A stretch of 64,000 nucleotides of DNA from a bacterium (GCA_030430495.1 JAUIKM010000033.1:1-64000), one strand, 5' to 3'. Shown: positions 118-64,000, counted from the stretch's first letter. Program-made: numbers and translations. Notes: a model not told the origin generated them from the letters alone.

Positions 118-118
118 A

Positions 119-3932: not shown

Positions 3933-3946
3933 GCGAGGTTCCGGAC

Positions 3947-5260: not shown

Positions 5261-5638
5261 TGCTGAATCTCCATTGTCTCTTTCCCGCTGCATATCCGGG
5301 CGGTGCGCCGCGGTGCGTGCTTTCGTGGGGACGAAAGACCGCGGACACGCTTGTATCGATCCGGGATGAAAGAATCGCACTGTAACTGCGACCGGCTTAC
5401 AGGTGTTCGAGCGCCGTCCAAAGCGCGGCGGTCGTTTGATACCGCGCAAAATTCGCTGAAACCAGCGGGGGCGAATGTTCGTCTGTTGCGCCGGAGCGGG
5501 CCAAAAACGGCCTCGCAGTCGTGCGTTAACGCGCGAACAAAAACAAAGTTTCCGCCGCAGGTAGCGGCAAGGGGATTTTCACCGGTCGTAAACCGGACTC
5601 CGATTCAGGCGGGGCGATTCAGTCAGGATGCAGTTTCC
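5261..5638. other. Divergent intergenic region
   Basis: This 378-base stretch separates the minus-strand exported-protein gene from the plus-strand OmpA-family gene and must hold both promoters. Open frames continue through it upstream of each chosen start but show no family-like sequence. I see no clear promoter match. Confidence 0.5.
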
Positions 5639-7738: not shown

Positions 7739-8448
7739 GGCTGGGGGAGCGAGAATATACAAGGTGAAGCGGCGGTGCATGGCCTGGCGCTTCGTCTGAA
7801 CGTTCCTTGCCGCTGGAACGGGCAGTTTAAGTAAGAGTGTGAGTGGGCGGTTTAGGTGGTTGAACGGAAAGGCTGAAAATTTTGGGCGCACTCCTGCGTG
7901 AATCTGGGGCCACCGAGCCCCGCGCCACCCCGCCATCCGCCTCCTGGTTATCCACCGGCCCAAACGCAACTCTCCTACCCCGCATTTCTGCGGGTCGATA
8001 GCAAATATCACACTCTGGGCTCTGATGGACAGGCCGCCACGCTGCATGCTGCGCGGCGACACCCCAAGTCTAGGCAACTGTGCGCAAATTTCAAGCGGCA
8101 AAAGTGTAAATGTAGCACCAGGTATAGGTGAACGGTCTGAAATTCACGGTAAACGGGTGCCAGACAAACTATCCATGATGACAGATCTCCGGTAGAAATT
8201 CTGAAAAGCCACTCGACAACAAGCGCCTGCGACAATCACAACCGGCGAAATGATCCAGGCAGGCAAATCGCACCCAAACCGTCGTCGCGTCAACAAGACC
8301 AAAAAAGGCAGCGCCGAAATTAACCTGCGAATCGACGAACTGGAAGAGCGCGTCCGCCGGATCTATCGCGAAATGCGGCTCAAACGCCAGGTGCCGACGC
8401 CGCAGCTTTCATTCTGTAGGAGAATTTGCAGACGCCGGGCACCTTTGC
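7739..8448. other. Intergenic region with a possible gene remnant
   Basis: 710 bases between the OmpA gene and the adenine methyltransferase. Short open frames in 7898-8235 have no recognisable sequence. At 8250-8420 one plus-strand frame reads like host coding sequence (SAEINLRIDELEERVRRIYR, coiled-coil-like, GC-rich third positions), then runs into the methyltransferase gene in antisense. It may be the truncated 5' part of a gene cut by arrival of the restriction-modification island, but I cannot name it. Confidence 0.35.
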
Positions 8449-9327
8449 TCAGACTGGGTACGTCAGAAGCAATCTATCGGCCACCTGCTCCGACTCCAAG
8501 GTTTGACCCTCCATCTGCAATCGCCGCAGCATCGAACGCCCCACACGAACAGAAATTTCGGTCTCGAATAACTTTGCCGGAATCGGCAAATCACAAATGT
8601 AATTGCCCGATTTTTTGCTGCCGTCGATACTCAAAGCCACGCGTACTCCACGTTCTTTGGCCTGTTCGATTTCGGCAAACAACTCTTCAAGACTGAACGT
8701 TTGTGCACCGTACAAAATACTCTGGCTGTGACTGTATGGCGGATCACAATAAACAGGGTCACCCGCAGTGGCACGCGCAAAGATTTCCTTGTAATCGGCA
8801 TGCAGAAAGGTGACGCCGCGCATGCGATTATGCCATTCTTCGACCCTGGCTGCAAAACTCGACACCGAAATCGGCATATGCGGTCCACAGGGCGTACTCA
8901 TGTAACCATCCGATTTGCGAAAGCGCACGATACCGCCATAGCATGCCCTGGTTAAAAACAAGAAATCGGCAGCGTTGTGCCTGGCGTTGAAGGAAGCCTT
9001 AACACTTTCATAAACATCCTTTTTGTTCTCACTTGTCAGAATGCGGCGTCTTTCCGCATACCACTCGATCAGGCAATCGGGATCGGATTGCAATTTTTGC
9101 CAGATTTCGATCAATGGTCGAAACACATCGCCGCCGACGCCCTTCTGTGGCGCCACGGTTGCCATAAGCGCTGCGCTACCTAAAAACGGCTCATAGAAAG
9201 TTTTGAATGACACCGGGAAAAAACGGGCAATTTCGGCCGCAAAACGTTGTTTGTTGCCAACCCATTTCAGCAATTGATTTTTAGGAGGAGTATGGATGGC
9301 GAACTTTCGGTCGAGGGTCAGTTGCAT
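8449..9327 (-). CDS. D12-class adenine-N6 DNA methyltransferase (Dam-like)
   Basis: This 292-residue enzyme has LLKWVGNKQRFA (19-30) and YEPFLGSAAL (45-54), the family's S-adenosylmethionine-binding segments, and the catalytic DPPY at 195-198. The order and length fit the Dam/MboIA/DpnII group that methylates adenine. ATG 9327 is chosen over TTG 9345. It is transcribed divergently from an XRE regulator and an endonuclease-like gene, the layout of a type II restriction-modification system in which this enzyme protects host DNA. The recognition site cannot be read from sequence. Lower GC and different codon use from the flanks suggest horizontal transfer. Confidence 0.9.
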   Translation of the reverse strand: MQLTLDRKFAIHTPPKNQLLKWVGNKQRFAAEIARFFPVSFKTFYEPFLGSAALMATVAPQKGVGGDVFRPLIEIWQKLQSDPDCLIEWYAERRRILTSENKKDVYESVKASFNARHNAADFLFLTRACYGGIVRFRKSDGYMSTPCGPHMPISVSSFAARVEEWHNRMRGVTFLHADYKEIFARATAGDPVYCDPPYSHSQSILYGAQTFSLEELFAEIEQAKERGVRVALSIDGSKKSGNYICDLPIPAKLFETEISVRVGRSMLRRLQMEGQTLESEQVADRLLLTYPV

Positions 9328-9360
9328 GGTATTCAGTCGGTTCAACGTTAGTGTGCCTTT

Positions 9361-9403
9361 ATCCCGATATGGGATTTCCTAGTATAGAATTTACTTTTGA
9401 ACT
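9361..9403 (+). promoter_or_regulatory. Candidate operator and promoter of the RM control gene
   Basis: Between the divergent methyltransferase and regulator genes lies ATCCC-gatat-GGGAT (9361-9375), an interrupted palindrome. TATAGAAT (9383-9390) resembles a -10 element. The GTG that best starts the regulator is at 9404, so the transcript could be leaderless or nearly so, as is common for RM controller genes. This is inference from position and symmetry only. Confidence 0.4.
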
Positions 9404-9656
9404 GTGAAAAAAAGCATTTATAGCACTGAGTATCAGTGCCCTTGTAAGGACACTCTACAGCTTGCGATTGGGCACCGGCATAACACAGAAAGATCTGGCA
9501 GATCGATTAAATGTACCGCAATCGTTTATCAGCAAAATTGAGACTGGAGAACGCAGACTTGACTTGGTTGAACTGAAAGCTATCGTTGAAGTAATGGATA
9601 CCACACTTACAGAATTCGTTAAAGAATTTGAGAAAAACATCAATGAAAGCAGATAG
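9404..9656 (+). pseudogene. XRE-family HTH regulator of the RM system, apparent frameshift
   Basis: The continuous frame encodes [20 protein letters not shown] then [20 protein letters not shown], a clear XRE/Cro-like helix-turn-helix. The same frame upstream lacks the usual family N-terminus and any ATG/GTG start. In the neighbouring frame, GTG 9404 reads [12 protein letters not shown], which is exactly the expected beginning. Removing one C from the TGCCCTT run (9437-9443) joins both into a normal protein of about 83 residues. I therefore infer a +1 frameshift; otherwise a short protein could start at TTG 9462. The 3' end overlaps the next gene by 14 nt. Role: probably the controller of the endonuclease gene. 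Confidence 0.65.
9423..9439. repeat. 17-nt interrupted palindrome
   Basis: GCACTGA-gta-TCAGTGC has perfect 7-base arms. It falls where the two reading frames of the XRE gene must join. It could be an operator or a coincidence of coding sequence. Confidence 0.4.
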
Positions 9657-9873
9657 CAAGTTTAAAAATCAGGATCTGGAATTTTGGGCGAACATTAGAT
9701 TACTGAATCAGAGGCTTGGGTATACAGTAAGAAAGTCACGCAAGAATCCAGAAGGTGGCTTTCTGGTCCCAACTGCTGAACAGATAAAAGCAGTGTTTGA
9801 GGCAGAAGGCTTATCCACCGGTCGTCTCCTTAAACTGAACAAACCAACGCCACCAGGCATGTTGATTAATTGA
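9643..9873 (+). CDS. N-terminal part of a putative restriction endonuclease (split gene)
   Basis: 76 codons beginning [20 protein letters not shown] at ATG 9643, overlapping the XRE gene by 14 nt. The stop comes at MLIN. The next gene starts four bases later in a frame shifted by one, and its N-terminus (EFRSKVLTNTVQ) reads as a natural continuation. I recall a family of roughly 300-residue proteins next to D12 methylases in which both parts form a single chain. The junction contains the near-direct repeat TTGATTAATTGATTA (9862-9876), a plausible place for an indel. It could instead be a genuine small separate subunit. Confidence 0.5.
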
Positions 9874-9877
9874 TTAC

Positions 9878-10507
9878 ATGGAGTTCCGGAGTAAAGTCCT
9901 GACAAACACTGTACAACATTTACTCATGGATAATGAGCAAGCCAAAAATCTGTTCTATACTACGAAAGGTAAATCAGACCCAAATTGCCCTCTTCCTGTG
10001 AATAAGCAGAAAGGCACGAAACGAGATTACGCTTTTCTGACAGGTTTGGTGAATATGCTCATCGAAAAACACATAGGTAATGCACCGTGTGATTACGATC
10101 CCGGGGAGTTAACAGCATTTACAGAAAACGGCCATCCCATTCGAACACTTTCAAGAAGGCTTGATGGTGCCTATCCGTCTGCAATAGACCCTCAAGCCAT
10201 TTGGGAAATAAAGGAATATTATTACACAACGACTTTTGGGAGTCGGATTGCAGATGGAGTGTACGAAACACAGTTAGATGGTTGGGAACTTCTTGAAGTC
10301 AATGAATCTATTGGCAGAGTTGTCCAGCACTATCTCATAGTTGACGGTCACTTCACTTGGTGGACCCAAGGACGGTCTTACCTATGCCGGCTAATTGATT
10401 TGCTTCACATGGGTTTGGTCACTGAAGTGCTCTTCGGCAAAGAAATTATTACGCGTTTGCCTCGAATTGTATCAGCATGGAATCAACTTTCCGGCCGCAC
10501 AGGATAG
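9878..10507 (+). CDS. Putative type II restriction endonuclease, main part
   Basis: 209 codons from ATG 9878, without a visible ribosome-binding site. The central region has D-x17-ExK spacing resembling a PD-(D/E)XK nuclease: DGAYPSAIDPQAIWEIKEYY, followed by YTTTFGSRIADGVYETQLDG and HFTWWTQGRSYLCRLIDLLH. The ExK (EIK) and upstream Asp are the candidate metal-binding residues. Next to a DNA adenine methylase and an XRE regulator, this most likely is the cleaving enzyme of a type II RM system. The assignment rests on context, a remembered family and the ExK pattern. It is probably one gene with 9643-9873, interrupted by a frameshift, so activity is doubtful. Confidence 0.6.
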   Translation: MEFRSKVLTNTVQHLLMDNEQAKNLFYTTKGKSDPNCPLPVNKQKGTKRDYAFLTGLVNMLIEKHIGNAPCDYDPGELTAFTENGHPIRTLSRRLDGAYPSAIDPQAIWEIKEYYYTTTFGSRIADGVYETQLDGWELLEVNESIGRVVQHYLIVDGHFTWWTQGRSYLCRLIDLLHMGLVTEVLFGKEIITRLPRIVSAWNQLSGRTG

Positions 10508-10636
10508 ACTGTTGAACCACGCGCCGGACGGGTTCCCGTGTTCGTGTACAACCATCAGGATCGGTCACCTGCGGCCCTCTGTCCACTCTGCCGTAAGCAA
10601 CAAGAAAGAGTCAGCCACCCAACCAGAGCGTATTAA

Positions 10637-10656
10637 CACTAATCCATATATTAGTG
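10637..10656. repeat. Inverted repeat upstream of transposase remnant
   Basis: CACTAAT-ccatat-ATTAGTG has 7-base arms and a 6-base loop, 13 nt before the transposase start. It may relate to the end of the insertion element or act as a hairpin behind the endonuclease gene; no T-run follows. Confidence 0.35.
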
Positions 10657-10668
10657 CATGACTAACCA

Positions 10669-11091
10669 ATGACAACTCAGTTCGAAAAGATAACTCCACA
10701 TCTTCTGCGACAGAGTGGCAACGTTAAAATCAGCAATTACCAACTGCTTAGCGCTGTTTTACATGTTGCCGAGCACGGTTGCAAATGGCGCGGCCTGCCG
10801 GAGCATTCTGGCAATTGGCGTACAAAATACACGCGTGTAAACCGCTGGGCCAGGAATGGCGTCTTGGATCGTGTCTTTGCAGCATTGCAAACCAGGCGCA
10901 TTGTTAACGTCAGGTTTGGAGCCGTTTCACTTGACAGTACAATTGTCCGCGTCTGTAAACTTCCCCTTCTTAGCTTCAAGGGAAATCAGAAATACTACTT
11001 AACATTTGTCCTGTTGGACAAACAGGGAAACTCTTTGAGCTGTCCAAATTTCACCGGGAGTTTACTCGTCGTTAAACTTCCGAGCGAATAG
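10669..11091 (+). pseudogene. IS5-family transposase, truncated
   Basis: The 140-codon frame contains the N-terminal DUF4096-type region of IS5-family transposases: ISNYQLLSAVLHVAEHGCKW, RGLPEHSGNWRTKYTRVNRW and the first catalytic Asp context SLDSTIVRV. After residue 105 the sequence stops resembling the family (CKLPLLSFKGNQ...) and no downstream part with the remaining DDE residues is present. It is therefore a dead remnant with its 3' half deleted. It forms the right edge of the low-GC restriction-modification island and may have helped bring the island in. Confidence 0.75.
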
Positions 11092-11311
11092 AGTGATGGT
11101 TTCTACCGCACGCACACCACAACCAGAAGGCTGCGCCCCGCATCTACCCCCACGCCACAAAAACTCAATGGCCGCACAATCGAATAAATCCTCCGATTCG
11201 GCTCCCAAACGGAAAAGCGCCCGCCAGGAAACCAGCGAGCAACCACCGCTTGCCGCCGCGATGATACACGTTGCGCGGTGCGTCAGCCACCAAAAAAAAG
11301 CGTAGTTTTGC

Positions 11312-11344
11312 ACCCGCCGGCGGAGACTCCGCGGGCTGTTTTTT
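11312..11344 (+). terminator. Possible imperfect terminator hairpin ahead of aspS
   Basis: The GC-rich CCCGCCGGCGGAGACTCCGC can fold with the following GGGC into an imperfect hairpin and is followed by TTTTTT. Just upstream, TAGTTTTG (11303-11310) matches the Bacteroidota -7 consensus TAnnTTTG, although no well-spaced TTG lies before it. The site may be a terminator of upstream transcription or part of the aspS leader. Confidence 0.35.
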
Positions 11345-11366
11345 ATCAACGAAAACATCAACGGCA

Positions 11367-13166
11367 ATGGCATTTCTGAAACGGACTCATACCTGCGGCG
11401 CGCTGCGCCCGGAACACAGCGGCGAAGAAGTAATCCTCAATGGCTGGGTACAGCGCAATCGCGACCTGGGCGGATTGATTTTCATCGATGTGCGAGATCG
11501 TTACGGACTCACCCAGGCCGTCGTCCTGCCCGACGCAGGTGAACAGCTCGTCAATGCCGCCCGCGGCCTGCACGCCGAATACGTGATTGCCCTGCGCGGC
11601 ACGGTGCGCCTGCGCGAAAACCCCAACCCCAACATCCCCACCGGGCTGATCGAGGTGCTCGTCAACGAACTGGAAGTACTCAATGCGGCCGATACGCCGC
11701 CCTTTGAAATAGAAGACAATGTGCGCGCCGGTGAAGAACTGCGCCTGCGCTATCGCTACAACGACCTGCGCCGCCCGGCCATGCAGCGCATCTTCGACAT
11801 CCGCAACCAGGTCTATCAGGCCGCTCACAAGTATTTCAACGAGCTGAATTTCCTCGAATTCGAAACGCCGGTGCTGATGAAGTCCACGCCGGAAGGCGCG
11901 CGCGACTTCCTCGTGCCCAGCCGCGTGCACCACGGCAGTTTCTACGCCCTGCCGCAGTCGCCGCAGATCTATAAACAGCTTCTGATGGTCGCCGGCATGG
12001 ACCGCTACATGCAGATCGTCAAGTGTTTCCGCGATGAAGCCCTGCGCGCCGACCGCCAGCCGGAATTCACGCAGATCGACGTCGAAATGTCATTCGTCGA
12101 TCAGGACGACGTCCTCGAAGTGACCGAAGGTTTTATCGCACAAACCTGGCGTGAAGTCGCCGGCGTCGAGCTGCCGCGCCCCTTCCCGCGCATGAGTTAC
12201 GCCGATGCCATGAGCCGCTACGGCACGGACAAACCCGACACGCGCTACGGGCTGGAGCTGACCACCGTCAGCGAGATCGTCGCGAAAAGCGGGTTTAAAG
12301 TCTTCAGCGGCGCAGTGGAAAGCGGTGGCATCGTCGCGCTGCTCAACGCCAAAGGCTGCGCGGCATACTCGCGCAAACAGATCGACGTGCTGACCGAACA
12401 CGCCAAAAAGTACGGCGCCAAAGGTCTGGCCTGGATGAAGTTTAACCCGGACGGCGTGCAGTCGCCCATCGCCAAGTTCCTCGACGACGACACCATCGCT
12501 GCGCTGCGCGAGGCCGCCGGAGCCGAAGAAGGCGACCTCCTGCTTTTCGGCGCGGGACCGGACGAAGCTACCTACACGGTGCTCGGCGCGCTGCGCAGCG
12601 AGATTGCGCGGCAAACGGGCGTCCTGGCAAAACTGGACGGGGTGTTTAATCCGCTGTTTATCACGGACTGGCCGCTGCTCGAGTACGATGAAGAAACCGG
12701 TCGTTACATCGCCAAACACCACCCGTTTACGCAGCCGCACGAGGACGACGTGGCGACGATGCTGGACAATCCCGGCGCAGCGCGCGCCGTGGCCTACGAC
12801 CTGGTGATTAACGGACACGAAGCCGCCGGCGGCAGCATCCGCATTCACCGCAAAGAAGTACAGGACAAAATGTTCAAGCTGTTGAACATCGACGAACACG
12901 AAGCACAGGAGAAATTTGGCTTCCTGCTCGACGCGCTGCGCTACGGTGCGCCTCCGCACGGCGGCATCGCCTTCGGTCTTGACCGCATGGTTATGCTGCT
13001 GGCCGGCACGGACAACATCCGCGACGTCATTGCCTTCCCCAAAACAACCAGTTTCCTCTCGCTGATGGACGGTGCGCCGTCCAACGTGTCCGAAGAGCAA
13101 TTGCGGGAACTCGGAATTCAACTGCGCACTAAAGCCGCCAAATCGACGGATGAGGACGCCGCTTAA
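11367..13166 (+). CDS. aspS: Aspartyl-tRNA synthetase
   Basis: 599 residues, normal length for bacterial AspRS. It has the N-terminal anticodon-binding OB fold (LNGWVQRNRDLGGLIFIDVR), class II motif 2 near residue 220 (FRDEALRADRQPEFTQID), the bacterial GAD insertion domain in the middle and class II motif 3 near 531 (GIAFGLDRMVMLLAG). It charges tRNA-Asp in the cytoplasm. Whether it also charges tRNA-Asn cannot be decided here; a tRNA-Asn gene is present at 48084. ATG 11367 is chosen because the family sequence starts immediately after it. The gene is GC-rich like the host and marks the right border of the foreign island. Confidence 0.97.
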   Translation: MAFLKRTHTCGALRPEHSGEEVILNGWVQRNRDLGGLIFIDVRDRYGLTQAVVLPDAGEQLVNAARGLHAEYVIALRGTVRLRENPNPNIPTGLIEVLVNELEVLNAADTPPFEIEDNVRAGEELRLRYRYNDLRRPAMQRIFDIRNQVYQAAHKYFNELNFLEFETPVLMKSTPEGARDFLVPSRVHHGSFYALPQSPQIYKQLLMVAGMDRYMQIVKCFRDEALRADRQPEFTQIDVEMSFVDQDDVLEVTEGFIAQTWREVAGVELPRPFPRMSYADAMSRYGTDKPDTRYGLELTTVSEIVAKSGFKVFSGAVESGGIVALLNAKGCAAYSRKQIDVLTEHAKKYGAKGLAWMKFNPDGVQSPIAKFLDDDTIAALREAAGAEEGDLLLFGAGPDEATYTVLGALRSEIARQTGVLAKLDGVFNPLFITDWPLLEYDEETGRYIAKHHPFTQPHEDDVATMLDNPGAARAVAYDLVINGHEAAGGSIRIHRKEVQDKMFKLLNIDEHEAQEKFGFLLDALRYGAPPHGGIAFGLDRMVMLLAGTDNIRDVIAFPKTTSFLSLMDGAPSNVSEEQLRELGIQLRTKAAKSTDEDAA

Positions 13167-13222
13167 ACACACAGCACTCCCCTGCACTAACTTTCTTTGT
13201 CTTTATCGGGTTTGAGATTCTT

Positions 13223-30513: not shown

Positions 30514-33500
30514 TTAGCGTACGAGAATCATCTGGCGCGTTACGGATTGCGTTCCAACAGTCATACGGTAGACGTATACACCGTTGGAGACTTCGCGTCC
30601 CGCTTCGTTGCGACCATCCCATGCGACGCTATACTGTCCAGGAGTATAGAAGCCGTTAGCCAGGGTGGCCACTTTGTTACCGATAGCGTCAAAGACCTCG
30701 AGCATAACCGGACCGGCTTCCGCAACACGGAATGCAACAGAGGTATTGCCGTTGAACGGGTTCGGCGTGTTTTGTGCCAGGATGGACTCGCCCTCTTGGT
30801 TCGGGTCTTCCCAGACAGAGACGACAGCCGTCTCTTCTTTCACGATCTCGAAACCGCTCACGTTGCTGGTCAGGATGCGCAGGCAGACAGAGTCGCCCTC
30901 GACCGTCAGAATGACGTCGTTTTCAAGGCGATTATAGGGGACAGGCTCGCGCATGTTAATCAGGAAGCGGTTGCCTTTTGTATCACCATCGCGGATGAAC
31001 CAATCCATGCCGTCGCCGGCAGTTGCTTCCGGATCGTCGAAGACCGTACGATCCCAGCAGATTTCAATCGGATAGTTCAGACCGTTGTCCGTTCCGCCCG
31101 ACTGGAAGACGCTTGTCAGCGGCTTGTTGGACGAACGCGGAACGATGTTGCGGAGCGTACCTTCACGCAGCGGGATATCCCAGCGAGCGTCAAAGACGGT
31201 CGGCGGAACCGGAACCGGCGGAATCTCATATTCGCAGTAGTTCGAATCGAGTTTGCCAATGCCGCCGGCATCTTCATCTTTACCGGTCGTAGCATCGGCA
31301 GCCGTACCCCATTGCAGGAGTTCTTCGGCGCCAAGGCTGTTCGTAATCCGGATTTCACTGATGAAGTTCGTAGCGTCGGAAACCGCAATGCGGAATACCA
31401 GCAGTGCTACTTCGCCATCGTCATCAACCGCGCGAATGCGAACCGTGACGGAACCGTCGCTGTTGCGATCTTCTGCCGCCGGAGGCGTACCGCTGACCGT
31501 AAATTCGGATTCACCACCAGTGATCGGACCGCTGACAACCTGAGGAGCAACCGTCCAACCGGCCGGCTCGTCAACCGAAAGCGTGATGCGCTCGGCAGCC
31601 GAATTCGGGATGGCGCGTTCCAGGTCGATGTCGCGAACCGTGAAGGTTTCTTCGAATGTACCATCGAAGTCTACACACTCAACCGGCGGTGCTTGCAGCA
31701 GTTCCGGCCCGTGGTTGACTTCGTTGATTTCAAGCGTCAGCTGACGGATGTGCGTCAAACCGCACTCGTCGCGTACCAGAACGGTAACCGTTTCAGCATC
31801 GCCGCCCAGACGCGGTGCGTCTTTGACGCGCGGCGTACCGTAGAGACGACCGCTGATCGGATCGATCAACAGCCATTCCGGCGTTGCGGCGGCACTGACG
31901 ATATCATTCCAATCGCCTGCTTCCGGGTAGCACTCGTCACGCAGGATCGTACGACCTTGATCGGCAGCATAGAGAAGTTCGAAGGTCAGCGTCTGGCCGA
32001 AGTTCGGATCCAGAGCTTTGATAGCGCGCGTCGAGTCGAGCAACGCTTCGTTGTAATCTTCGTCTTCCGTTGCCGGGTCGAGCGATTCCGTCGTGATGAG
32101 CGGTTGATAGTTGATCAGCACCGGGTACGTACGCGTGTTCGTACCACCGTGACCGTCGCTCACAATAACCGTGAAGCTCGTGTCAGTGATCAGCGCCTGG
32201 TTGACCTGGTCCGGAGGAGTCAGCATGGGAAGAGCTTCCGTGTAGGGAATCTCAACGCGGATGAATCCACGATCCGTAAAGGCCAGACCGCCGTCAAGGT
32301 TGTTGTTGTCATCAACCAGGTAGTCGGCGCCAAGCCACTGCGGGCGGTTCTGATACTGGTTGTCGCGAGCGGTATCTTCCGGGTTCGGACGGATGTCAAC
32401 GATTTCATAACCGTATTTGGTACGACCGTAGCGGAAATCCCAGCCCGTCGACTCAGCGTCGCGGTCTTCGCGTTCGTCATCAGTGTTGATGTCGACCTGG
32501 AAGCGCAGGAACTGCGAGGCGTCGCGGAGAACGCTGGCGACCAGCGTGTCGCCGTCGCTTTTCTGGCAGGCGAAGTCTTCTTCTTCAAACACCGGAATGC
32601 TGTCCGTCACGATAATGCGGAAACGGTATTCCGCCGTAGCGTTGAAGCCGAGGTTCGTCGAATCCTGCTGCAGGTATTTCGCTTGATCCGTCATGTAATC
32701 GCACGCACTGAAGTACGGGCGATACAGATAGATGTATTTGGCGATTTCTTCTTCGCTGACGCCGATGGAGCGCAGCGAGTCGATCGTGCGATAGTACGGA
32801 GCCCAGTTGCGGGCGCGTACCGTCACAACTTCACCGCCGGGCACGATGTACGGGTTCGTCGGGCGACCAATCAGGTGGACCCAACCCGTAGCGCCGTGCA
32901 GCGTCGGGGAATCATCCGTGCTGTTCGGATAGATCGTTTTGGACGTCAACCAGCGAGACAGACCGCTGTTGGAAGCAACTTCCCACTCATATTCCATTTG
33001 CGTGAAGTTGTCGCCATCGAAGAGCGAACGCGGATCGATGTTGCGGTTGATATCCGTAGCGGTAATCGCGAAGATAGAGTCGCGACCCGGGTGGTTGTCG
33101 GAGTCAGCTTGCGGGTATTCAAGGTCTTCCGTCAGGAAGATTACGTCGATACCGTCGGCCGGCTCATAACCTTCGATCTGGTTTTCTTCGGTCTGGGTTT
33201 TGAAACCAGTCAGGACCGGCGGCATCGTCGAAGCGCTGATACCGAATTTCAGACCTTGAGCAATGGCTTCGTTCACACCGTCTTTCCACAGAACCGTACG
33301 CGAGATAACGCGAACTGTATCACCTACGCGCACAGGCAGCGCCGTAAAGCGCTCACCACCGTAGTGCGAGAGTTCAACGTTCGGATCCAGAGCCGGACGG
33401 TTCGAGTAACCAAAACCTGCGCCGCCGGAACGACCAGGCGTCGCTTCGTAGCGACGGCCTTTCAGAGCCGCCTGATCTTCGTTCTTCGCAGCGTCGTATT

Positions 33501-36500
33501 GCGAGGCGAAGTTTTCGCGCTGGAATTTGGCGCTGACGTTTTGCAGCAGCGAGGAACCGCCGCCGAAGTTCGAGAGACCTTCAGCAGTACGGCGATCCAG
33601 CACGTTGAAGTAACGGTTCGAAGAGTCGGGCACGAGTTCGACACGACCGCGGAATACTTCGCTCGTCGGATCGATCTGTTGCAGGCTGGCGCGGATATAG
33701 TCGCCGGTGTTTTCGTTGATTACGAAGTACACCGTCTCATGGATAGCGCGGTTGTCGTTGTTGCTGCGGTTTACATCGCCATCGTAGTTGGTGTGCGCCT
33801 CAAGGAAGAGAGGATAACCAATGGCGTGTGCACCGTGCATCTCCGTTTGCAGTTGCGCGACTTTGTCGTCGGTTTCTGCAACAAAAGGATCGCGCGTCCA
33901 GCGTTTGATGACTTTGCCGAAGGACGGCATGTCAACGTTCTCAAACTGGCGCAGACGCGGCGGAATACCAACAGCGAAGTCCTCGATACGCGCCATGCGG
34001 CGGTTGCTGTAGTCGAGCGATTTGGCGTCGGTACCTTTGTCGAAGATGTCGTACACGTGGCCCTGGAAGAGCTGAACTTCCGGAATGCTGACGTCGAAAT
34101 CGTCGGAAACCGGAATCGGCGTGTACGCATAATTCGCATTGCGCTCAAACGGACCCTGATGTTTCAGGTTCGAAGAGCCGCGAACGAATGTAAGTTGATT
34201 CGTTTCGGTTTTGCTGAAGAAGAAGGTCGATTGCAGCGTATTCGTACGTTCGATCACCGTCGTAACGTTCGCTTCGCTGTGTCCCCAGTAGTTACCCTGC
34301 ATGTTGGAGATACGGCCTGCACCGATCAGACCACGGGCCAGCGAGCCCTTGGTGTTCGGAGCGTCCGGCAAGCGGATGAGGAATCGAGCTTCATTGCTGT
34401 AAATCGCGTTCGCGCCCGTGTGGTAATCCACGTAAGGAAGCGGACCGACAATCTCACCATAGAGTACAGCACCGGCCAGATCGCTGGAAGCGGGGTTGAT
34501 GCCGCCGACCATCGGGCCGAAGATTGCGTTCTGATCGCGACCGATGTCCGACGTTGCAACGTTGCCGGTCACCAGACAGCGCGTCAGTGCAACAGACAGG
34601 TTGTAGTTGTCGGAGTAAACAGCGCCGCCCGAGAAGGCTTCGTTGTCCTGTACGCGGACGCGGTTCATGTTCACGCGGTCCGGGCGGCTCAGACGGTTAA
34701 TGTCTGATTCGTCCAGAATGTACAGTGCACCACCAAGACCGGTACCGTTCTCGAGCAGGTCGAGGCCGGCGCGCAGGCCCGGGTGAATGCGGTCGGTGAT
34801 GTTATCACCTTCCTGCGTAGAACCGCTACCCATGTTGTCCATGTCGGGGATCGCACGGTTTCCGAGGAAACGCGTCAGCGAGCGTACATCCGGCGAAATG
34901 TCGGTATTGTACGTGTAGGGATCCTGGCTGCCGCCCTGCGGATTCTCAACGACATCGCCGTCGATCAGGACGTCGAAGTCGGTGATGAAGCTGCGGTTGT
35001 TGACACGACCAACGTTAACCAGTGCAACAGCACCGCCGTTACCGTACCAAACGCGGTTGTTCAGGAATTCCGTCGCGCGAACTTCATACAGGTCGCCGTA
35101 CTGGGCGTAGATGGCGCCACCACCCTGAACATTGCCGTCCAGTGTGCTGTCCGTCGACACCGTGTTGGCCCAGAAGTGCGAGCGAATCACGTGCGAGCGA
35201 CGTTCGATCGGCGAGAAGCCGGAACGATCGTCGATGTCGACCATGACACCGCCACCGGCGTAGCCGGCCCAGTTGTCGCGGAATTCAATGCGGAAGTTGC
35301 CGCCGTAGTTGGAAGCGGTACCGATCGTACCACCGGCGCCGTTGATCCAGGTCGATTTTTTCGTGTAAACAGCGCCGCCCTGAATGGCCGCCTGGTTTTC
35401 ACGAAACTTGATGTTGAAACCGTAGTCGCGCGTTGCCAGCGAAAAGTCGGAACCACCAATGATCGGCGAAGCGACGCGCACTGCGCCGGTTTGCTCCTGG
35501 TAGATACCGCCGCCGCTACCGGCCATGTTGCGCTCGAAGTAAGTCAGAGCGTTGTCGGCCTGTTGACGGCCACCACGCACGTTCACCCAGTTTGCACCGG
35601 AGGACGCGTAGATTGCGCCACCGAGCGATTGGTTTTTCAGATCGTCGTTGAAACCGAGGTTCGTCGTATTGTCGGCAAAGCGACCGCCGACGATCAGCGA
35701 CGTAGCCGAACCGACGAACAGAGCACCGCCGCGAGCACCAAAGGTGTTGCCCGATGCCGGCTGCAGGTTCGTTGCAGTGTTGCCTTCGAACAGGATGTAA
35801 TCGGTTTCAGGCGAGCACTCGTGATTCACGCCGAGGCTGAGAATCATCTGGTTACGGCCCGCGATGTACATAGCGCCGCCGAATGCACCGTTTTTGAACG
35901 AACGGCTATCAATGGTAGCAGGTGCATCCAGAACGTCATCCGTTCCGATGGGCACATTGTTGTCGTCAAATTGTACGGCGTGATCGGAAACCAGCAGTTC
36001 GTTGTTGCGGAACGTCAGCTGACGCACGCGGCAAAGGAAGATGGCCAGACGACCATCGTCAACGAGTTGGCGCTCCATGTCCGTCAGCGGCTCCGCCGTC
36101 GGGTTGCGCAGTTCGTCGATTGCTTTGATGTTTTGCTGGATTTCCTGACCGTTCATGTGGTCGGTAATTGCCGGATTGGTACCTGCGGGATAGTTGGACA
36201 GTCCAGATACAATCGGAGCTGAGTTCGGATAAACACCGGGTGTTCCGTTGGGACCGAAGTTGTCTTCCGGAGCCTGCAGGAACTGTACAGCGCCGCCGCG
36301 ATAGCGAGCCATGTTGTCTTCGAACTTACAGGAGACCAGCCAGGTGCGGACCGAGAAAGTCGTCAGAGCACCGCCGGATCCGTTCGTAAGTTCGGCCATG
36401 CGAGCGCTCAGACCATCGTAAGGACCGGAAGGCTGACCTTGCGGAGCGTCGTAGTAAGGCTCGTTCGTCACAAAGCGGTCTACCGTCGTATCCTTGCGGA

Positions 36501-37215
36501 AATTCTGGAAGTCCACATCGCGGAAGTACGCGGCGCGAGCGCCGGGCAGAACTACAATGTGACCCCATTCACGCGAGAAGGAGTTGACCGGGTTACCGCG
36601 CATCGTGATGCGAGCGGGAACAACGTCGATATCACGACTTTCAAGACGCGACCAGGGACGCTGGTTGATGTTCGGGTCGATGTTGGCGTTTTCCAGACGA
36701 GCGAGCTTGTAGAGCATCGCGCCGCCGGGCGTCAGGTTTTGCAGACGCGAATCCGAGTTCGACAGGTCGACGCGGAAAAGAGCATTTGCTTTGTTAAAGT
36801 TGACCGTCGGCTCTGCAATGTTCGGCGACGTGTAAACGCCGGGCGCTGCAAAGTAGTCGAGGTCGGCATAGCCGGAGTAAAACGTCGGGGGATTACCCGG
36901 GATTTTGACTGTCGTCAGAGGATCAAAAGGATCATTGTAACGAGCGAAAACCCGACCGTCGGCAATCAGACGACCGCCGGCAGCCACGATAAGACGACCG
37001 TTGGGTTTGAATTCGAGAACTGCACCCGGTTCGACGAGTACCGTTCCAAAGATCCGTAACCGACCGTCAATCGTGTAGAGATGATCCTTATCAAGGATAC
37101 GGACATCTCCCGGCTGAATATCGCCGGTCAGGAGTACAGGGGTCTGCGCATGTAAGGTTGTTGAAAGCCCCGCAAGCGCTAGGAAAAGGATTACTGCACG
37201 AAACCAACGTTGCAT
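30514..37215 (-). CDS. Giant Pmp-like adhesin/surface protein with T9SS domain
   Basis: 2,233 residues from ATG 37215 (GGAGGG upstream). The signal peptide is VILFLALAGLSTTLHAQ. The first half is a parallel beta-helix with at least eleven GGA/GGG-x-Y type repeats (RGGALFV, LGGAIYA, SGGGIYQ, QGGAVYT, LGGALYI, SGGAVYS), as in chlamydial polymorphic outer-membrane proteins. The second half has Ig/cadherin-like modules (PEWLLIDPISGRLYGTPRVK; VRDECGLTHIRQLTLEINEV). The end is a type A sorting domain (LAQNTPNPFNGNTSVAFRVA ... VSNGVYVYRMTVG). An adhesive or surface-layer role is likely but unproven. TTA, CTA and TCA codons are absent from 30547 to 34707. Confidence 0.9.
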   Translation of the reverse strand: MQRWFRAVILFLALAGLSTTLHAQTPVLLTGDIQPGDVRILDKDHLYTIDGRLRIFGTVLVEPGAVLEFKPNGRLIVAAGGRLIADGRVFARYNDPFDPLTTVKIPGNPPTFYSGYADLDYFAAPGVYTSPNIAEPTVNFNKANALFRVDLSNSDSRLQNLTPGGAMLYKLARLENANIDPNINQRPWSRLESRDIDVVPARITMRGNPVNSFSREWGHIVVLPGARAAYFRDVDFQNFRKDTTVDRFVTNEPYYDAPQGQPSGPYDGLSARMAELTNGSGGALTTFSVRTWLVSCKFEDNMARYRGGAVQFLQAPEDNFGPNGTPGVYPNSAPIVSGLSNYPAGTNPAITDHMNGQEIQQNIKAIDELRNPTAEPLTDMERQLVDDGRLAIFLCRVRQLTFRNNELLVSDHAVQFDDNNVPIGTDDVLDAPATIDSRSFKNGAFGGAMYIAGRNQMILSLGVNHECSPETDYILFEGNTATNLQPASGNTFGARGGALFVGSATSLIVGGRFADNTTNLGFNDDLKNQSLGGAIYASSGANWVNVRGGRQQADNALTYFERNMAGSGGGIYQEQTGAVRVASPIIGGSDFSLATRDYGFNIKFRENQAAIQGGAVYTKKSTWINGAGGTIGTASNYGGNFRIEFRDNWAGYAGGGVMVDIDDRSGFSPIERRSHVIRSHFWANTVSTDSTLDGNVQGGGAIYAQYGDLYEVRATEFLNNRVWYGNGGAVALVNVGRVNNRSFITDFDVLIDGDVVENPQGGSQDPYTYNTDISPDVRSLTRFLGNRAIPDMDNMGSGSTQEGDNITDRIHPGLRAGLDLLENGTGLGGALYILDESDINRLSRPDRVNMNRVRVQDNEAFSGGAVYSDNYNLSVALTRCLVTGNVATSDIGRDQNAIFGPMVGGINPASSDLAGAVLYGEIVGPLPYVDYHTGANAIYSNEARFLIRLPDAPNTKGSLARGLIGAGRISNMQGNYWGHSEANVTTVIERTNTLQSTFFFSKTETNQLTFVRGSSNLKHQGPFERNANYAYTPIPVSDDFDVSIPEVQLFQGHVYDIFDKGTDAKSLDYSNRRMARIEDFAVGIPPRLRQFENVDMPSFGKVIKRWTRDPFVAETDDKVAQLQTEMHGAHAIGYPLFLEAHTNYDGDVNRSNNDNRAIHETVYFVINENTGDYIRASLQQIDPTSEVFRGRVELVPDSSNRYFNVLDRRTAEGLSNFGGGSSLLQNVSAKFQRENFASQYDAAKNEDQAALKGRRYEATPGRSGGAGFGYSNRPALDPNVELSHYGGERFTALPVRVGDTVRVISRTVLWKDGVNEAIAQGLKFGISASTMPPVLTGFKTQTEENQIEGYEPADGIDVIFLTEDLEYPQADSDNHPGRDSIFAITATDINRNIDPRSLFDGDNFTQMEYEWEVASNSGLSRWLTSKTIYPNSTDDSPTLHGATGWVHLIGRPTNPYIVPGGEVVTVRARNWAPYYRTIDSLRSIGVSEEEIAKYIYLYRPYFSACDYMTDQAKYLQQDSTNLGFNATAEYRFRIIVTDSIPVFEEEDFACQKSDGDTLVASVLRDASQFLRFQVDINTDDEREDRDAESTGWDFRYGRTKYGYEIVDIRPNPEDTARDNQYQNRPQWLGADYLVDDNNNLDGGLAFTDRGFIRVEIPYTEALPMLTPPDQVNQALITDTSFTVIVSDGHGGTNTRTYPVLINYQPLITTESLDPATEDEDYNEALLDSTRAIKALDPNFGQTLTFELLYAADQGRTILRDECYPEAGDWNDIVSAAATPEWLLIDPISGRLYGTPRVKDAPRLGGDAETVTVLVRDECGLTHIRQLTLEINEVNHGPELLQAPPVECVDFDGTFEETFTVRDIDLERAIPNSAAERITLSVDEPAGWTVAPQVVSGPITGGESEFTVSGTPPAAEDRNSDGSVTVRIRAVDDDGEVALLVFRIAVSDATNFISEIRITNSLGAEELLQWGTAADATTGKDEDAGGIGKLDSNYCEYEIPPVPVPPTVFDARWDIPLREGTLRNIVPRSSNKPLTSVFQSGGTDNGLNYPIEICWDRTVFDDPEATAGDGMDWFIRDGDTKGNRFLINMREPVPYNRLENDVILTVEGDSVCLRILTSNVSGFEIVKEETAVVSVWEDPNQEGESILAQNTPNPFNGNTSVAFRVAEAGPVMLEVFDAIGNKVATLANGFYTPGQYSVAWDGRNEAGREVSNGVYVYRMTVGTQSVTRQMILVR

Positions 37216-59413: not shown

Positions 59414-60301
59414 ATGCGACTTGTTACTCTTACACTGACTGTACTGACTCTGACTCTCAACTGTGTGAATTTGAACGCACATGACGACGACGACTCCTAC
59501 TGGGTCGTCGACGAAATGGAGGGCCCGTACGAAAACTTCGACAAACGCCGATCCTCGCTTTACTTCAACTACGGCCAGGCGTCCTTCGGCGCGGAGGACA
59601 TGGCGATCGTGCCGGCCGACGCCGGTCTGGCGGAGATCCAGCTGGGCTACACCAAAACCGGCTATCTGGACAACGCGCCCAACGTGGCCTATCAGTATTA
59701 TGACGGCCTGACCTTTACCTACCTCTCGTCCAACCTGGGGCAGACGGCGGCCGACGACGCGCTGGGTCTGGAGATTCTGCGGCTGAGTCCGACGCGACGC
59801 GAGGGACTCGGCTATCGCCTCGGCGAAAATCGCAACATCATTTTGTTTAACGGCGCTTCGATGAACTGGAATCGCATCAACGTGCTGTCCACGCCCTTCG
59901 GCCTGCCGATCGACTCTCTGGCGCGCGCCTCCGAACTGCGCGTCTACGCCGACGACATTCACTTCGGCATGCGCACGGAAGCGGGCATTCGCGCCGAGCT
60001 GTTTGACCAGATGGCCGTTGAAACGCGCTTTGAACGCAGCCTGATCTTCCGCCGTCACAAATTCTGGAAATGGGCCGGCAGCGTGGTGCTGGAACAGATC
60101 TCGCAGGAACTGCTGGACGACTTCCTCTTCGACGCGCTCGAAACCAACCCGGACTGGGTGCCGGTCGTAAGTTTTGTGCTGAAAAACGGTCTCTCCTACG
60201 TGTGGTACGAAATGCGCCAATCGGAGATGAACTGGCCTTTCGGCGACGAGGCTCCGCTGGCCAACGACGCCTTCAAGGTTGGCTTCGTGCTGACGCTTTA
60301 A
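59414..60301 (+). CDS. Hypothetical outer-membrane protein
   Basis: 295 residues. A signal peptide (LVTLTLTVLTLTLNCVNLNA) is followed by an acidic DDDDSYWVVDE start. The rest alternates polar and aromatic residues in strand-like units (SSLYFNYGQASFGAEDMAIV, IQLGYTKTGYLD, GLSYVWYEMRQSEMN). It ends KVGFVLTL, like the last strand of an outer-membrane beta-barrel. I do not recognise a family; a porin-like or DUF-type barrel is likely. Confidence 0.7.
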   Translation: MRLVTLTLTVLTLTLNCVNLNAHDDDDSYWVVDEMEGPYENFDKRRSSLYFNYGQASFGAEDMAIVPADAGLAEIQLGYTKTGYLDNAPNVAYQYYDGLTFTYLSSNLGQTAADDALGLEILRLSPTRREGLGYRLGENRNIILFNGASMNWNRINVLSTPFGLPIDSLARASELRVYADDIHFGMRTEAGIRAELFDQMAVETRFERSLIFRRHKFWKWAGSVVLEQISQELLDDFLFDALETNPDWVPVVSFVLKNGLSYVWYEMRQSEMNWPFGDEAPLANDAFKVGFVLTL

Positions 60302-60610
60302 CGGCACGGCCGACTTAAACAACAGCCGCCTGAGCGCTTCGCCTCCTTCGCTGCACTCGGCGGCTTGCTTTTTTCTCTTTTGTTTACCACTGAGCGCCAC
60401 GCGGCCGGCCGGCAGTTTGTCACCGATGCGTTTAACGACAGACTCAAAGGCTTGCCGCGCACCATTCGGTGATTAACAAAAGAATCAGGGAGCCTGCCGC
60501 AGCGCGGCAAAGCGACAGCCCGCGCCGCACGGTTTAACAAGGACCGCAAAGATGCGGCGCTTCCACCCGGATTTTGTACATTGCGGCCCACAGCGCCCAT
60601 CGGCGGTGCA
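60302..60610. other. 309-base intergenic region
   Basis: No gene is visible. It contains a two-block sequence (60331-60388) resembling 47864-47910, and three copies of the TTAAAC/GTTTAA hexamer (60315, 60430 and 60532). TACATTGC (60577-60584), 27 nt before the next start codon, resembles the TAnnTTTG element. Confidence 0.45.
60331..60388. repeat. Possible dispersed intergenic sequence
   Basis: GAGCGCTTCGCC (60332-60343) and CGGCTTGCTTTTTTCTCTTT (60361-60380) match the two blocks at 47864-47910 with a longer spacer. Confidence 0.35.
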
Positions 60611-61171
60611 ATGTTTCACAAGCGCAACAACGACAACGTGGCGGAGCAGGACGCAATATTAAACAACGGATCGGCAAGCCTGACGCTCGTCTGCGGGCTC
60701 CCCGGCTCGGGTAAATCCTTCCTGGCGCGGCGGCTGGCGCGGGCGCTGAATGCGGAGTACATCAGCTCCGACGCCGTCCGTATGCGCGTGCTCGAACAGC
60801 GCAGCTACAGCGCATATGAGCGCAACAACATCTACAGTTTGATGCAGAAAATGACGCGCGACGCCTTAAACAGCGGTCGCAATGTCGTTGCGGACGCAAC
60901 GTTTTATCGCCGCGCGCTGCGCGAAGAATTCCGCCGTCTGGCGGGCGACCTGAACATCGCCTTTAAACTGATTGAAGTGCGCGCCGCGCGCCCGACAATC
61001 GAACGACGCCTGAAGCGCCCGCGCCGCACGAGCGAAGCCGACCTGGCCGTGCACGATAAAATCGCCGCCGAATTCGAATCTGTTGAGTTTGACCACCTCG
61101 TGCTGCACAGCGACGACGAAACGCGCGACGACGAGCGCCTGGACGCCGCTCTGCGCTATCTGGAGAGTTAA
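60611..61171 (+). CDS. P-loop kinase-like protein (AAA_33)
   Basis: 186 residues. Walker A is GLPGSGKS (29-36). YISSDAVRMRVL and VVADATFYRRALREEFRRLA are typical of the zeta-toxin/AAA_33 nucleotide-kinase-like group. No membrane or signal sequence. The gene stops 2 nt before an aminoglycoside-phosphotransferase-like gene. In many proteobacteria these two modules form one protein with the phosphotransferase-like domain first (COG2187/COG0645); here they are separate genes in the reverse order. Substrate unknown. Confidence 0.85.
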   Translation: MFHKRNNDNVAEQDAILNNGSASLTLVCGLPGSGKSFLARRLARALNAEYISSDAVRMRVLEQRSYSAYERNNIYSLMQKMTRDALNSGRNVVADATFYRRALREEFRRLAGDLNIAFKLIEVRAARPTIERRLKRPRRTSEADLAVHDKIAAEFESVEFDHLVLHSDDETRDDERLDAALRYLES

Positions 61172-61173
61172 AC

Positions 61174-62187
61174 ATGGACACGACACAACTGGCGGCGCTG
61201 CGAACATCGCTGGAACGCAATGACGGTCAGGAAAGCGAGCTGCGCGAAACGCACATCTCATGGGTTATCCTGACGGCGACGCGTGCGTACAAAATCAAAA
61301 AGCCGATTAAACTCTCCTTCCTCGACTTCTCCGAGCAAACGCAGCGCCTGCATTTCTGCCGCCGCGAGCTGGAACTCAACCGCCGCCTGGCGCCGCAGAT
61401 CTACCTGGATGTAGCCGATGTTAAACAAACGAAAGACGGCATTGCGCTGGATGGCACGGGCGAAACAATCGACCACGCGCTGGTGATGCGTCGCATGGAC
61501 GACAGCCTGCTGTTAAACAAGATCCTGCCGCGCGTGCAGACTGCCGACATCGAAGTTATTGCGCGTCAGATTGCCGACTTTCACCGCGCCGCGCCGCGAA
61601 TATTCAAACCGGATCCGGGCGAGCGCATGAACCGTGCGATCGACAACATTCTGCAGGTGCGCGGCACAATCGAACTGGAGCTGGGCGCAGGCGCGGGGAA
61701 AATCGTCGACGACTGCTCGAGTTTCGGCCGCAGTTTTGTGGCGTCCAACCGCGACTATATCGAAGAGCGCAGCGCCCGCGGTTTTATCCGCGACGGCCAC
61801 GGCGACCTGCACTGCGGCAACATCATTATGGACCGGCCGCCGATCATTTTTGACTGCATTGAGTTCAACGATGAATATCGGCAGATCGACGTGTTAAGTG
61901 AAATCGCCTTTTTAACAATGGACCTGGAGGCGCAGGGCCGCGACGATCTGGCCGCCGCCTTTGAACGCGAATATTTGCAGCACAGCGGCATGCCGCACGG
62001 CCGCCAGGAACAGCGACTGACGACGTACTTTAAACTGTATCGCGCCAATGTGCGCGCCAAGGTAGCTGCGATCGGGTTGGGGGAGAGTGACAACTCAAAC
62101 AATGAAAGTGTTGAGCAACTGCGCAACAAACTGAACACCTACCTGCAACTGGTTAAGCGGTATCGTTTTGAGTTGTCGGAGGGATAA
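61174..62187 (+). CDS. Aminoglycoside phosphotransferase-like kinase (COG2187)
   Basis: 337 residues. The N-terminal region ETHISWVILTATRAYKIKKP with KLSFLDFSEQTQRLHFCRRE is characteristic of COG2187. The catalytic loop is GHGDLHCGNIIM (near residue 208) and the metal-binding segment IIFDCIEFND. The intact HGDLHxxN and D motifs predict kinase activity, but no substrate is known and an antibiotic-resistance role should not be assumed. It lies 2 nt after the P-loop kinase gene, so the two are certainly co-translated. Confidence 0.88.
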   Translation: MDTTQLAALRTSLERNDGQESELRETHISWVILTATRAYKIKKPIKLSFLDFSEQTQRLHFCRRELELNRRLAPQIYLDVADVKQTKDGIALDGTGETIDHALVMRRMDDSLLLNKILPRVQTADIEVIARQIADFHRAAPRIFKPDPGERMNRAIDNILQVRGTIELELGAGAGKIVDDCSSFGRSFVASNRDYIEERSARGFIRDGHGDLHCGNIIMDRPPIIFDCIEFNDEYRQIDVLSEIAFLTMDLEAQGRDDLAAAFEREYLQHSGMPHGRQEQRLTTYFKLYRANVRAKVAAIGLGESDNSNNESVEQLRNKLNTYLQLVKRYRFELSEG

Positions 62188-62274
62188 GGCGCGCATTTGG
62201 GACTTGACTCGGTCCATAAACCGAGCGTAGGTTTGCCGCAACGGCGCACTTGCTTACCCAATTCCGGAGCTTGT

Positions 62275-63090
62275 ATGAGCCTCAGCTGCAGGCATCTGCC
62301 ACAGTTACTGTTATTGATATTGCTCTGTCCGGCCTGCTCATCGTCCGTTTTCTCCAGCAACGGAGACAAAACATTTTTTTCCGATTGTTGGTGGCGCAAC
62401 TCTTCCATCAACGGCCATCTGTATGTTATTTCAATGGTGGACATTGACAATCGGAATCGGCGAATTTACCGCGTGGGAGGACGGATTTACAACAAAGAAT
62501 TAAACAAATCTGAAAATCCGTGCATGGACGGCGGCTCCGCTACCGTAAGCGATGTTTCGTTGGAGTACGAGACCGACGTTAAGGGAATGTACCACGCCGT
62601 GTACGGCAGCGACAGCGCTGTGAGCCCGCCTACCTTCGGTGCAGTTTCCACCTGGGCCTTGACCGGCAATCCGGACAGCAATGTTCCGGCATTTCATTTT
62701 ACCACATATGTTCCTCAGGAGTTAACAATCTCGGGACCAGTATTTGAGAATACGAATAAACCCGCGGCGCACAGCAGACTTCAGCCACTGACTGTCAGGT
62801 GGAATGCCGACAGCACCAACCCCTGGGGCGTCATCGTAAGATTGAGCTGTAGCGAATATCCAAATAACCGCAGGTTGGATTTCCCGGAGAGAGGGATCGA
62901 CCTTTCAATGCACGCGCCCGATACCGGTGAATACACCTTCGACGTGGAGTTTTCGAGTGAGATTCCCGTCAACAGCGTGTTGATTGTTGAGGTGATACGC
63001 GGCGTCCAGCGGATGATCGACATTGACGGCAATACGTTTTTGGCCAATGCGCTTACGTCAGACTGCGGCACGATCCGCCTGATTGATTGA
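62275..63090 (+). CDS. Hypothetical lipoprotein
   Basis: 271 residues from ATG 62275 (GGAG upstream). The hydrophobic leader LPQLLLLILLCPACSSS contains a lipobox-like CPAC, so Cys is probably lipidated. The remainder is beta-rich with scattered cysteines (SDCWWRN, NPCMDGG, RLSCSEYP, TSDCGTIRL) and no known domain. Base composition is AT-richer than its neighbours, consistent with recent arrival or low expression. A terminator follows at 63124. Confidence 0.72.
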   Translation: MSLSCRHLPQLLLLILLCPACSSSVFSSNGDKTFFSDCWWRNSSINGHLYVISMVDIDNRNRRIYRVGGRIYNKELNKSENPCMDGGSATVSDVSLEYETDVKGMYHAVYGSDSAVSPPTFGAVSTWALTGNPDSNVPAFHFTTYVPQELTISGPVFENTNKPAAHSRLQPLTVRWNADSTNPWGVIVRLSCSEYPNNRRLDFPERGIDLSMHAPDTGEYTFDVEFSSEIPVNSVLIVEVIRGVQRMIDIDGNTFLANALTSDCGTIRLID

Positions 63091-63123
63091 CATCCAGCAA
63101 GCGATACGGAGGCCTCAATACTT

Positions 63124-63158
63124 AAACAGGCGACAGATTCCTCGTCTGCCGCCTGTTT
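63124..63158 (+). terminator. Hairpin terminator between convergent genes
   Basis: AAACAGGCGACAGA pairs with TCTGCCGCCTGTTT, a 14-bp stem with one mismatch and a 7-nt loop, followed by ATTTT. It may serve both the lipoprotein gene and the convergent T9SS gene. Confidence 0.82.
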
Positions 63159-63208
63159 ATTTTAATGGTCGCCGTTTCATTGTTTCTCAATCGCACATCC
63201 GGAACCCG

Positions 63209-64000
63209 TCACTCAACCACCAACATCCGGCTCTCGCGGTAAGGCCCGGCGCTCAGAATGTAGCGATAGGTTCCCGCGGCCAGCTCGGACGTGTTCAGGC
63301 TGATGCGATGCGCGCCGGCCGCCTGAACGCCGTCGACCAGTTCCCGCACCACGCGCCCCAGTTCGTCGGTTAAACGCAGCGACACGTCTGTTTCAAAACC
63401 CAGACTGTAGACAATGTCGGTCGTCTGACCCGCGGGATTGGGGCTGTTCTGCAGCAGGTTAAACTGCATGCCCGCAGCTATCACGCCGCGGTGTTCGCGC
63501 AGACAGAACGTCGAGAGCCGTACCTGCGCGGAGTCGAGGTCGCCGCAGGCGTTGGCCACGCCGAAGTTGCTCGACGCCAGTTTAACATTGATAAACTCGG
63601 AGTCCGAAGCCACCAGCAAGACGCGCATGCGGAATTCAAGACTGAAACGTCGCTCCAGCGGTGAACCGTCGCTCGCCGCGCTTAAAACAAACTCGTCGGC
63701 TCCGCCGACGACTTCGCCGTTAAACGACCAGCCGTCGAGGCCCGCCACCGCGCGTACCGAACCGGGCTCCAGCCACAGTTCGTCCTTGCGGTAGTTGACA
63801 TTCACCGTGAATTCGCGTTGATCCAGCAGCTCCTCCAGCTCCTCGCGCAGAGCAAAATCCAGTCGGAAGACAATCTCGTCGCCGGGCAACGCGCCGCCTG
63901 CCGGCGATTCGGCAGAAAGTTCGATGTCCACGCGCGGTATCAGTCTGATGTTAACCTGCTTGCTGACGCTGCAACCGTTTTCGGTGAAACCGGTCACGGT
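63209..64000 (-). CDS. C-terminal part of a T9SS-secreted protein (partial)
   Basis: The frame is open to the right edge, so the start lies outside the window. The visible 263 residues are beta-rich and end in a type A sorting domain: NLLQNSPNPAGQTTDIVYSL, VSLRLTDELGRVVRELVDGV, LAAGTYRYILSAG and the final SRMLVVE. The upstream part (KQVNIRLIPRVDIELSAESP) looks like stacked Ig-like domains. The protein is predicted to be exported through the type IX system; the function is unknown. Confidence 0.88.
   Translation of the reverse strand, partial: TVTGFTENGCSVSKQVNIRLIPRVDIELSAESPAGGALPGDEIVFRLDFALREELEELLDQREFTVNVNYRKDELWLEPGSVRAVAGLDGWSFNGEVVGGADEFVLSAASDGSPLERRFSLEFRMRVLLVASDSEFINVKLASSNFGVANACGDLDSAQVRLSTFCLREHRGVIAAGMQFNLLQNSPNPAGQTTDIVYSLGFETDVSLRLTDELGRVVRELVDGVQAAGAHRISLNTSELAAGTYRYILSAGPYRESRMLVVE

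Follow-up and report, generated by a model that had tools for sequence, protein, structure and literature searches.

What does a dense run of one hexamer near the end of a bacterial contig represent, when the 16 kb before it lack the word altogether? The question was raised by the window analysed here (GCA_030430495.1 JAUIKM010000033.1:1-64000), which makes up the opening 64 kb of a 72-kb contig in a draft metagenome-assembled genome (MAG) of 5.6 Mb (80 contigs, 95.6 per cent complete, 0.14 per cent contaminated). By aspartyl-tRNA synthetase, its nearest named relatives are Candidatus Kapaibacterium MAGs, with 68 per cent identity at best. The initial annotation reported eighteen copies of TTAAAC or its complement GTTTAA between 59,845 and 63,725, of which fourteen were TTAAAC on the plus strand, none in the preceding 16 kb, and about one expected from base composition.

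An exact count over the window agrees with this description. TTAAAC lies on the plus strand at 60315, 60659, 60866, 60963, 61168, 61307, 61421, 61513, 62030, 62500, 63122, 63370, 63459, and 63720, and the four copies of GTTTAA are at 59845, 60430, 60532, and 63580. The last copy before the cluster is at 43847, leaving 15,998 bases free; a second, smaller group of nine copies (7700-13163) falls outside the stretch to which the claim of absence applied. Composition alone does predict about one copy in the cluster stretch, but this rarity is relative, as the genome averages 1.31 copies/kb. In total there are 7,338 copies genome-wide (3,654 + 3,684), whereas the control word, its reverse, has 2,918, so the window cluster is one place within a genome-wide pattern. 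The two strands are equal across the genome (3654 vs 3684), and the cluster's 14:4 strand ratio is local. A local protein-binding array, one of the causes first suggested, is therefore ruled out, its density being typical of about half the genome; in the form of a genome-wide set of binding sites, the same idea becomes the leading mechanism discussed below.

About 1.8 of the 5.6 Mb were read for the detailed analyses, with gene calls from a simple purpose-made predictor. Only four places in this sample (0.2 per cent of positions) hold at least 18 copies per 3.9 kb, and the cluster is thus dense even by the genome's own standard. Its contrast with the surroundings is sharpened because the two longest site-free runs of the sample (24.7 and 16.0 kb) are both in the window. 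The initial annotation had named equal density in many other regions as grounds for dismissing the cluster, and here the answer is divided: site-rich genes average 2.4 TTAAAC/kb, but eighteen copies in 3.9 kb are rare. As a caution, what looks like a 'cluster' in a single window may be one phase of a mosaic that extends over the genome. An assembly or polishing artefact, also proposed at the outset, is not supported, since thousands of sites occur on every contig sampled, within intact open reading frames, in all frames, and following codon and amino-acid logic.

The abundance of the word is nearly confined to this genome. The extended form TTAAACA has 3,787 copies here versus 844 for its control, and none of the other 394 genomes sampled from the phylum comes near this ratio, the next group reaching about 2. 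Within the same family, one genome (G001) is enriched in neither TTAAAC nor TTAACA, and in another (G002) TTAACA is raised 2.7-fold in genes and TTAAAC is not above its control. Searching the literature for TTAAAC brought up the fission-yeast Mmi1 RNA motif and nothing else, and a stricter search returned nothing; the Mmi1 motif is unrelated, because both DNA strands carry the word here.

Two classes of transcription units

Among genes of at least 600 nt, which were used for the gene-wise rate fits, site density is bimodal, with two Poisson rates of about 0.3 sites/kb (about 48 per cent of genes, site-poor or L) and 3.1-4.0 sites/kb (about 52 per cent, site-rich or H). The two-rate mixture is better than a single rate by 505-554 log units and better than a continuous gamma-Poisson model by 56. 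For the tetramer TTAA the mixture gain is 635, compared with 10-23 for control words such as AATT, TATA, and CAAATT; in related genomes the TTAA gain is near zero in four of the five sampled and weak in G002. TTAACA counted outside TTAAAC tracks TTAAAC in 4-kb bins (r = 0.51), with most control words near 0.

Class membership follows operons. It is shared by 83 per cent of same-operon gene pairs, as opposed to 61-66 per cent of other neighbours, and in 600-bp tiles the correlation between same-operon genes is as high as within one gene and lower for other neighbours. Coding sequence in L genes has about 0.2 hexamers/kb, versus 3.6/kb in the 50 bases that follow the stop codon; in H genes the density is 3-4/kb within the coding sequence and 9/kb immediately after the stop. 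Within-operon spacers (gaps of at most 120 bp) contain five sites in 3.7 kb in L operons and thirty-five in 3.7 kb in H operons. These spacer and past-stop densities indicate that the restriction follows the transcription unit, its non-coding parts included. Convergent gaps between two L genes are enriched (4.3/kb), compared with 0.54/kb in L-L divergent gaps. The pattern is genome-wide, acts at the DNA level, and has two states that are set transcription unit by transcription unit. To our knowledge, the iterated words described from other genomes, namely uptake sequences, HIP1, and Chi, occur throughout and do not divide the operons sharply.

Other properties differ little between the classes. 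GC content (0.573 in H vs 0.593 in L genes) does not separate them, homologues in fragments of relatives are equally frequent (42/363 vs 42/376), indicating equal conservation, and secreted or membrane proteins show no difference between H and L. Codon use is nearly equal except where TTAA would arise: the GTT share of valine codons, H vs L, is 0.43 vs 0.06 before AA, compared with 0.11 vs 0.08 when AC follows and 0.23 in both classes when T follows. H genes also have a small residual general shift towards A/T at third positions. A different substitution history, the remaining cause put forward in the initial annotation, comes close to these observations, in that the two classes differ in TTAA-forming words and in little else.

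The site-poor class includes the cluster of ribosomal-protein, elongation-factor, and rpoBC genes (contig C6, ~12-45 kb), EF-Tu, GroEL, DnaK, FtsZ, and the F1-type ATPase genes (several of these machinery genes were named by sequence signature only), as well as BamA and UppS. Apart from the last two, these are gene groups that usually rank among the most strongly expressed. Two further loci may be recorded here. Adjacent suf genes differ at L076:15430-19054, the first SufBD-family gene being site-poor and the downstream one site-rich. A single open frame of ~15,400 aa (46 kb; G000:C58:78624-124829, plus strand, loci L226-L229) is site-rich along nearly its whole length and resembles a giant secreted repeat protein, with a beta-helix-like start and a C-terminal sorting-like tail.

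The over-represented word

Relative to base composition, TTAAAC is over-represented 5.4-fold, TTAAACA 12.4-fold, and TTAACA 4.3-fold. With synonymous codons shuffled inside each gene as the baseline, the most over-represented hexamer is GTTTAA/TTAAAC (1494 observed, 554 expected), followed by TGTTAA/TTAACA (1195 observed, 436 expected). Enrichment ranges from 1.6- to 12-fold over the reading frames of both gene strands, the exception being a TTAACA frame that holds just one site, and it is 4.4-fold in intergenic DNA. Base composition is ruled out as the cause (correlation with GC, r = -0.09). Codon usage is likewise not a sufficient cause: TTA makes up 27 per cent of leucine codons before AAC versus 0.1 per cent before GAA, and convergent gaps are enriched too. 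TTA-AAC stands mainly in place of CTC-AAC and CTG-AAC. FN, VK, KQ, LN, and FK show the largest increase among dipeptides in H proteins, and these are the ones encoded by TTAAAC(A)/TTAACA in its reading frames, so the pressure reaches the protein level and goes beyond synonymous choice. The mark acts on DNA: it favours neither strand, occurs whatever the reading frame and also between genes, and has enough force to alter amino acids.

The core of the word is TTAA, at 4.9/kb in site-rich vs 0.64/kb in site-poor genes, and G before and A after are preferred (g-TTAAAC-a), with no information in the flanks beyond these. The excess in H over L is graded, from about 3-fold for bare TTAA to 22-fold for TTAAAC and 20-fold for TTAACA. 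One AC/CA half is sufficient, and two halves have no synergy (odds 0.47); the left and right halves do not co-occur as they would in a full palindrome. Such gradation, together with the lack of synergy between halves, is more easily reconciled with a binding preference than with an enzyme site recognised in all-or-none fashion. Searches for a larger consensus, a palindrome, or helical phasing found none, and inter-site distances show only a codon-type 3-bp periodicity. Neighbouring sites have no preferred relative orientation (1008 same vs 971 different), spacers show no orientation bias (89 vs 102; 86 vs 67), and single sites are enriched past stop codons with no dominant inverted spacing. 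The strands are near-equal on each contig and there is no replichore strand bias, which rules out an oriented motif of the type of Chi or KOPS (FtsK orienting polar sequences), words that are likewise short and over-represented.

Two other words were recorded in passing. GGCGAC is even more uneven than TTAAAC (variance/mean 3.4 in 4-kb bins) yet uncorrelated with it, and TGACAAACAA is ~60-fold over-represented relative to base composition (45 vs 0.7) and may be a promoter element or a repeat.

Possible origins of the pattern

Our leading explanation, held tentatively and at slightly less than even chances, is that the TTAA-core words (best TTAAACA and TTAACA(A/T)) are the preferred sites of a sequence-selective DNA-binding protein in weakly transcribed DNA. 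An abundant nucleoid- or silencer-like protein would read the TpA step beside AC/CA. This putative protein would occupy weakly transcribed DNA, where selection would favour sites; in strongly transcribed operons, a bound copy would stand in the way of RNA polymerase, and selection would purge the sites there. In its boldest form, which is possible but rather doubtful, the pattern would be a two-state 'chromatin' code: a putative undescribed protein would recognise TTAAACA/TTAACAA, and selection would have written thousands of sites into about half of the operons and kept the others clean, with amino-acid changes as the cost. More generally, a word that is bimodal by transcription unit, nearly neutral for codon use outside its own context, and able to alter proteins would make it possible to read from sequence which operons are strongly transcribed or silenced in an uncultured bacterium. 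It would also be a lead to a nucleoid protein, an uptake system, or a mutational process that is new.

The closest described parallel is Rok of Bacillus. The core genome of B. subtilis is depleted in its words AACTA/TACTA, whereas Rok regions are enriched in them (PMC6212790). The codes of Rok, H-NS, MvaT, and Lsr2 share with the word studied here a short AT-rich sequence that contains a TpA step and in which one C is tolerated, a graded preference, and high density in one gene set with depletion in other genes, as seen above for TTAA and, at ~20-fold, for the hexamers (PMC6212790). Unlike the targets of those proteins, the site-rich genes here are ordinary native genes, about half of all, and carry the word within coding sequence. 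Silencer targets are AT-rich and less conserved, whereas H and L genes are close in GC content and have homologues equally often.

Several observations weigh against a binding protein. No candidate binder was found: the H-NS family (PF00816) is absent from this genome, unlike in H-NS-type systems, and Lsr2, MvaT, Rok, and MucR were not searched for; only two HU-type proteins are present in the genome. A codon-based expression proxy fails to split the classes (area under the curve 0.48), in an organism whose codon bias is weak. Functions are also split uncleanly, with RsmB and glycosyltransferases in L and AccA, SdhB, LpxC, and aspartyl-tRNA synthetase in H; as the machinery genes are L but both classes are functionally mixed, transcription strength is a supported but unproven correlate of class. 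G002 homologues agree in site density (rho 0.53), from which the H/L division may be older than this species, but this agreement is based on only 24 pairs. Finally, protein-changing selection on thousands of sites is demanding, and drive or a mutation process may suit the data better.

One such drive would be a DNA uptake or recombination signal, like the DNA uptake sequences (DUS) of Neisseria or the uptake signal sequences of Haemophilus, spread by molecular drive: imported DNA carrying the word would have an advantage, and the word would build up where tolerated. Thousands of copies in random orientation, enrichment of unconstrained convergent gaps, and the effect on protein sequence would all fit, and uptake sequences in general are known to affect the proteome. 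The related but different word of the sister genus (TTAACA, but hardly TTAAAC, in G002) recalls the DUS dialects of Neisseriaceae, which also have thousands of copies in both orientations and differ between sister taxa (PMC3630211). We nevertheless consider this origin unlikely: DUS are 10-12 bp long (PMC3630211), whereas the word here is 6-7 bp without a fixed extension, has two interchangeable forms with a graded preference, and is bimodal gene by gene, and no single conserved uptake-type word of ~9-12 bp was found. Moreover, under drive alone half of the transcription units would not be expected to remain free of the word when they are as conserved as the others. Similarly improbable, in our judgement, is a transcription-dependent mutation or repair bias, in which a context-specific process would make TTAA(AC/CA) where DNA is weakly transcribed, strongly transcribed units being held at the old level by transcription-coupled repair. 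It agrees with the enrichment in DNA past the ends of L genes, with the lack of conservation of site positions in G002 (6/119 identical), and with the TTAA level of the L class, ~0.4 of the composition expectation and close to that of the relatives G001 and G011 (~0.3; derived values), from which the site-rich state is probably the derived one. Its difficulty is that going from CTC-AAC or CTG-AAC to TTA-AAC takes two different substitutions per site rather than one mutation type, and that the general AT shift elsewhere in H genes is small.

Methylation and foreign origin fit less well than these two. A word kept by an adenine methyltransferase together with mismatch repair, like HIP1 (GCGATCGC) of cyanobacteria, would be short, iterated, and nearly genome-specific, as here, and HIP1 is also patchy across related genomes and spread by substitution (PMC4390886). 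HIP1 is, however, an octameric palindrome tied to methyltransferases (PMC4390886), and a non-palindromic word for which one half-site is enough, with a graded preference and a limitation to certain transcription units, makes such a model very unlikely. That the site-poor blocks are recently acquired foreign DNA in a site-rich native genome is barely credible. The accessory-looking genes of the long L domain in the window would suggest it, but the L class includes ribosomal, rpoBC, BamA, and UppS genes, class switches occur at gene ends, homologues are equally frequent, and codon use is nearly equal, which together largely refute it.

Other features of the window

The cluster lies in a site-rich stretch (59845-64000, with eighteen sites up to 63725) whose site-rich genes run on to the contig end at 72,048; one segmentation calls a gap. 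Its genes are a P-loop kinase/zeta-toxin-like gene on the plus strand (60611-61171; Pfam AAA_33, E = 7e-30) and, from 61174 onward, genes with 3-14 TTAA each. Among the latter, and of class H, are a phosphotransferase-like gene of APH fold (61174-62187, plus strand; Pfam APH, E = 5e-7; seven TTAA), a gene without a Pfam family (62434-63090, plus strand; three TTAA), and the 3' part of a minus-strand gene (63209-64000) that extends to contig position 67,153 and whose translated C-terminus resembles a type IX sorting tail.

Upstream of the cluster is a site-poor domain of 46.6 kb (13164-59844), the longest among the contigs segmented, with TTAAAC/GTTTAA at 19124 and 43847 only. Its genes encode an M16 peptidase, large surface proteins with sorting tails, histidine kinases, GDP-mannose dehydratase, ThiF/MoeB, an AbgT transporter, and an aldo/keto reductase. 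One minus-strand gene (30514-37215) encodes more than 2,150 aa, with repeats of the Chlamydia polymorphic-membrane-protein type and a C-terminal FlgD-like/sorting domain. The smaller site-rich domain (7700-13168), with its nine copies, contains the aspartyl-tRNA synthetase gene (11367-13166), and the contig starts with a site-poor domain (1-7699). Copies of the window's first 127 bases are found within contig C80 and terminally on C43 and C20, so the contig is probably broken at a mobile element or repeat.

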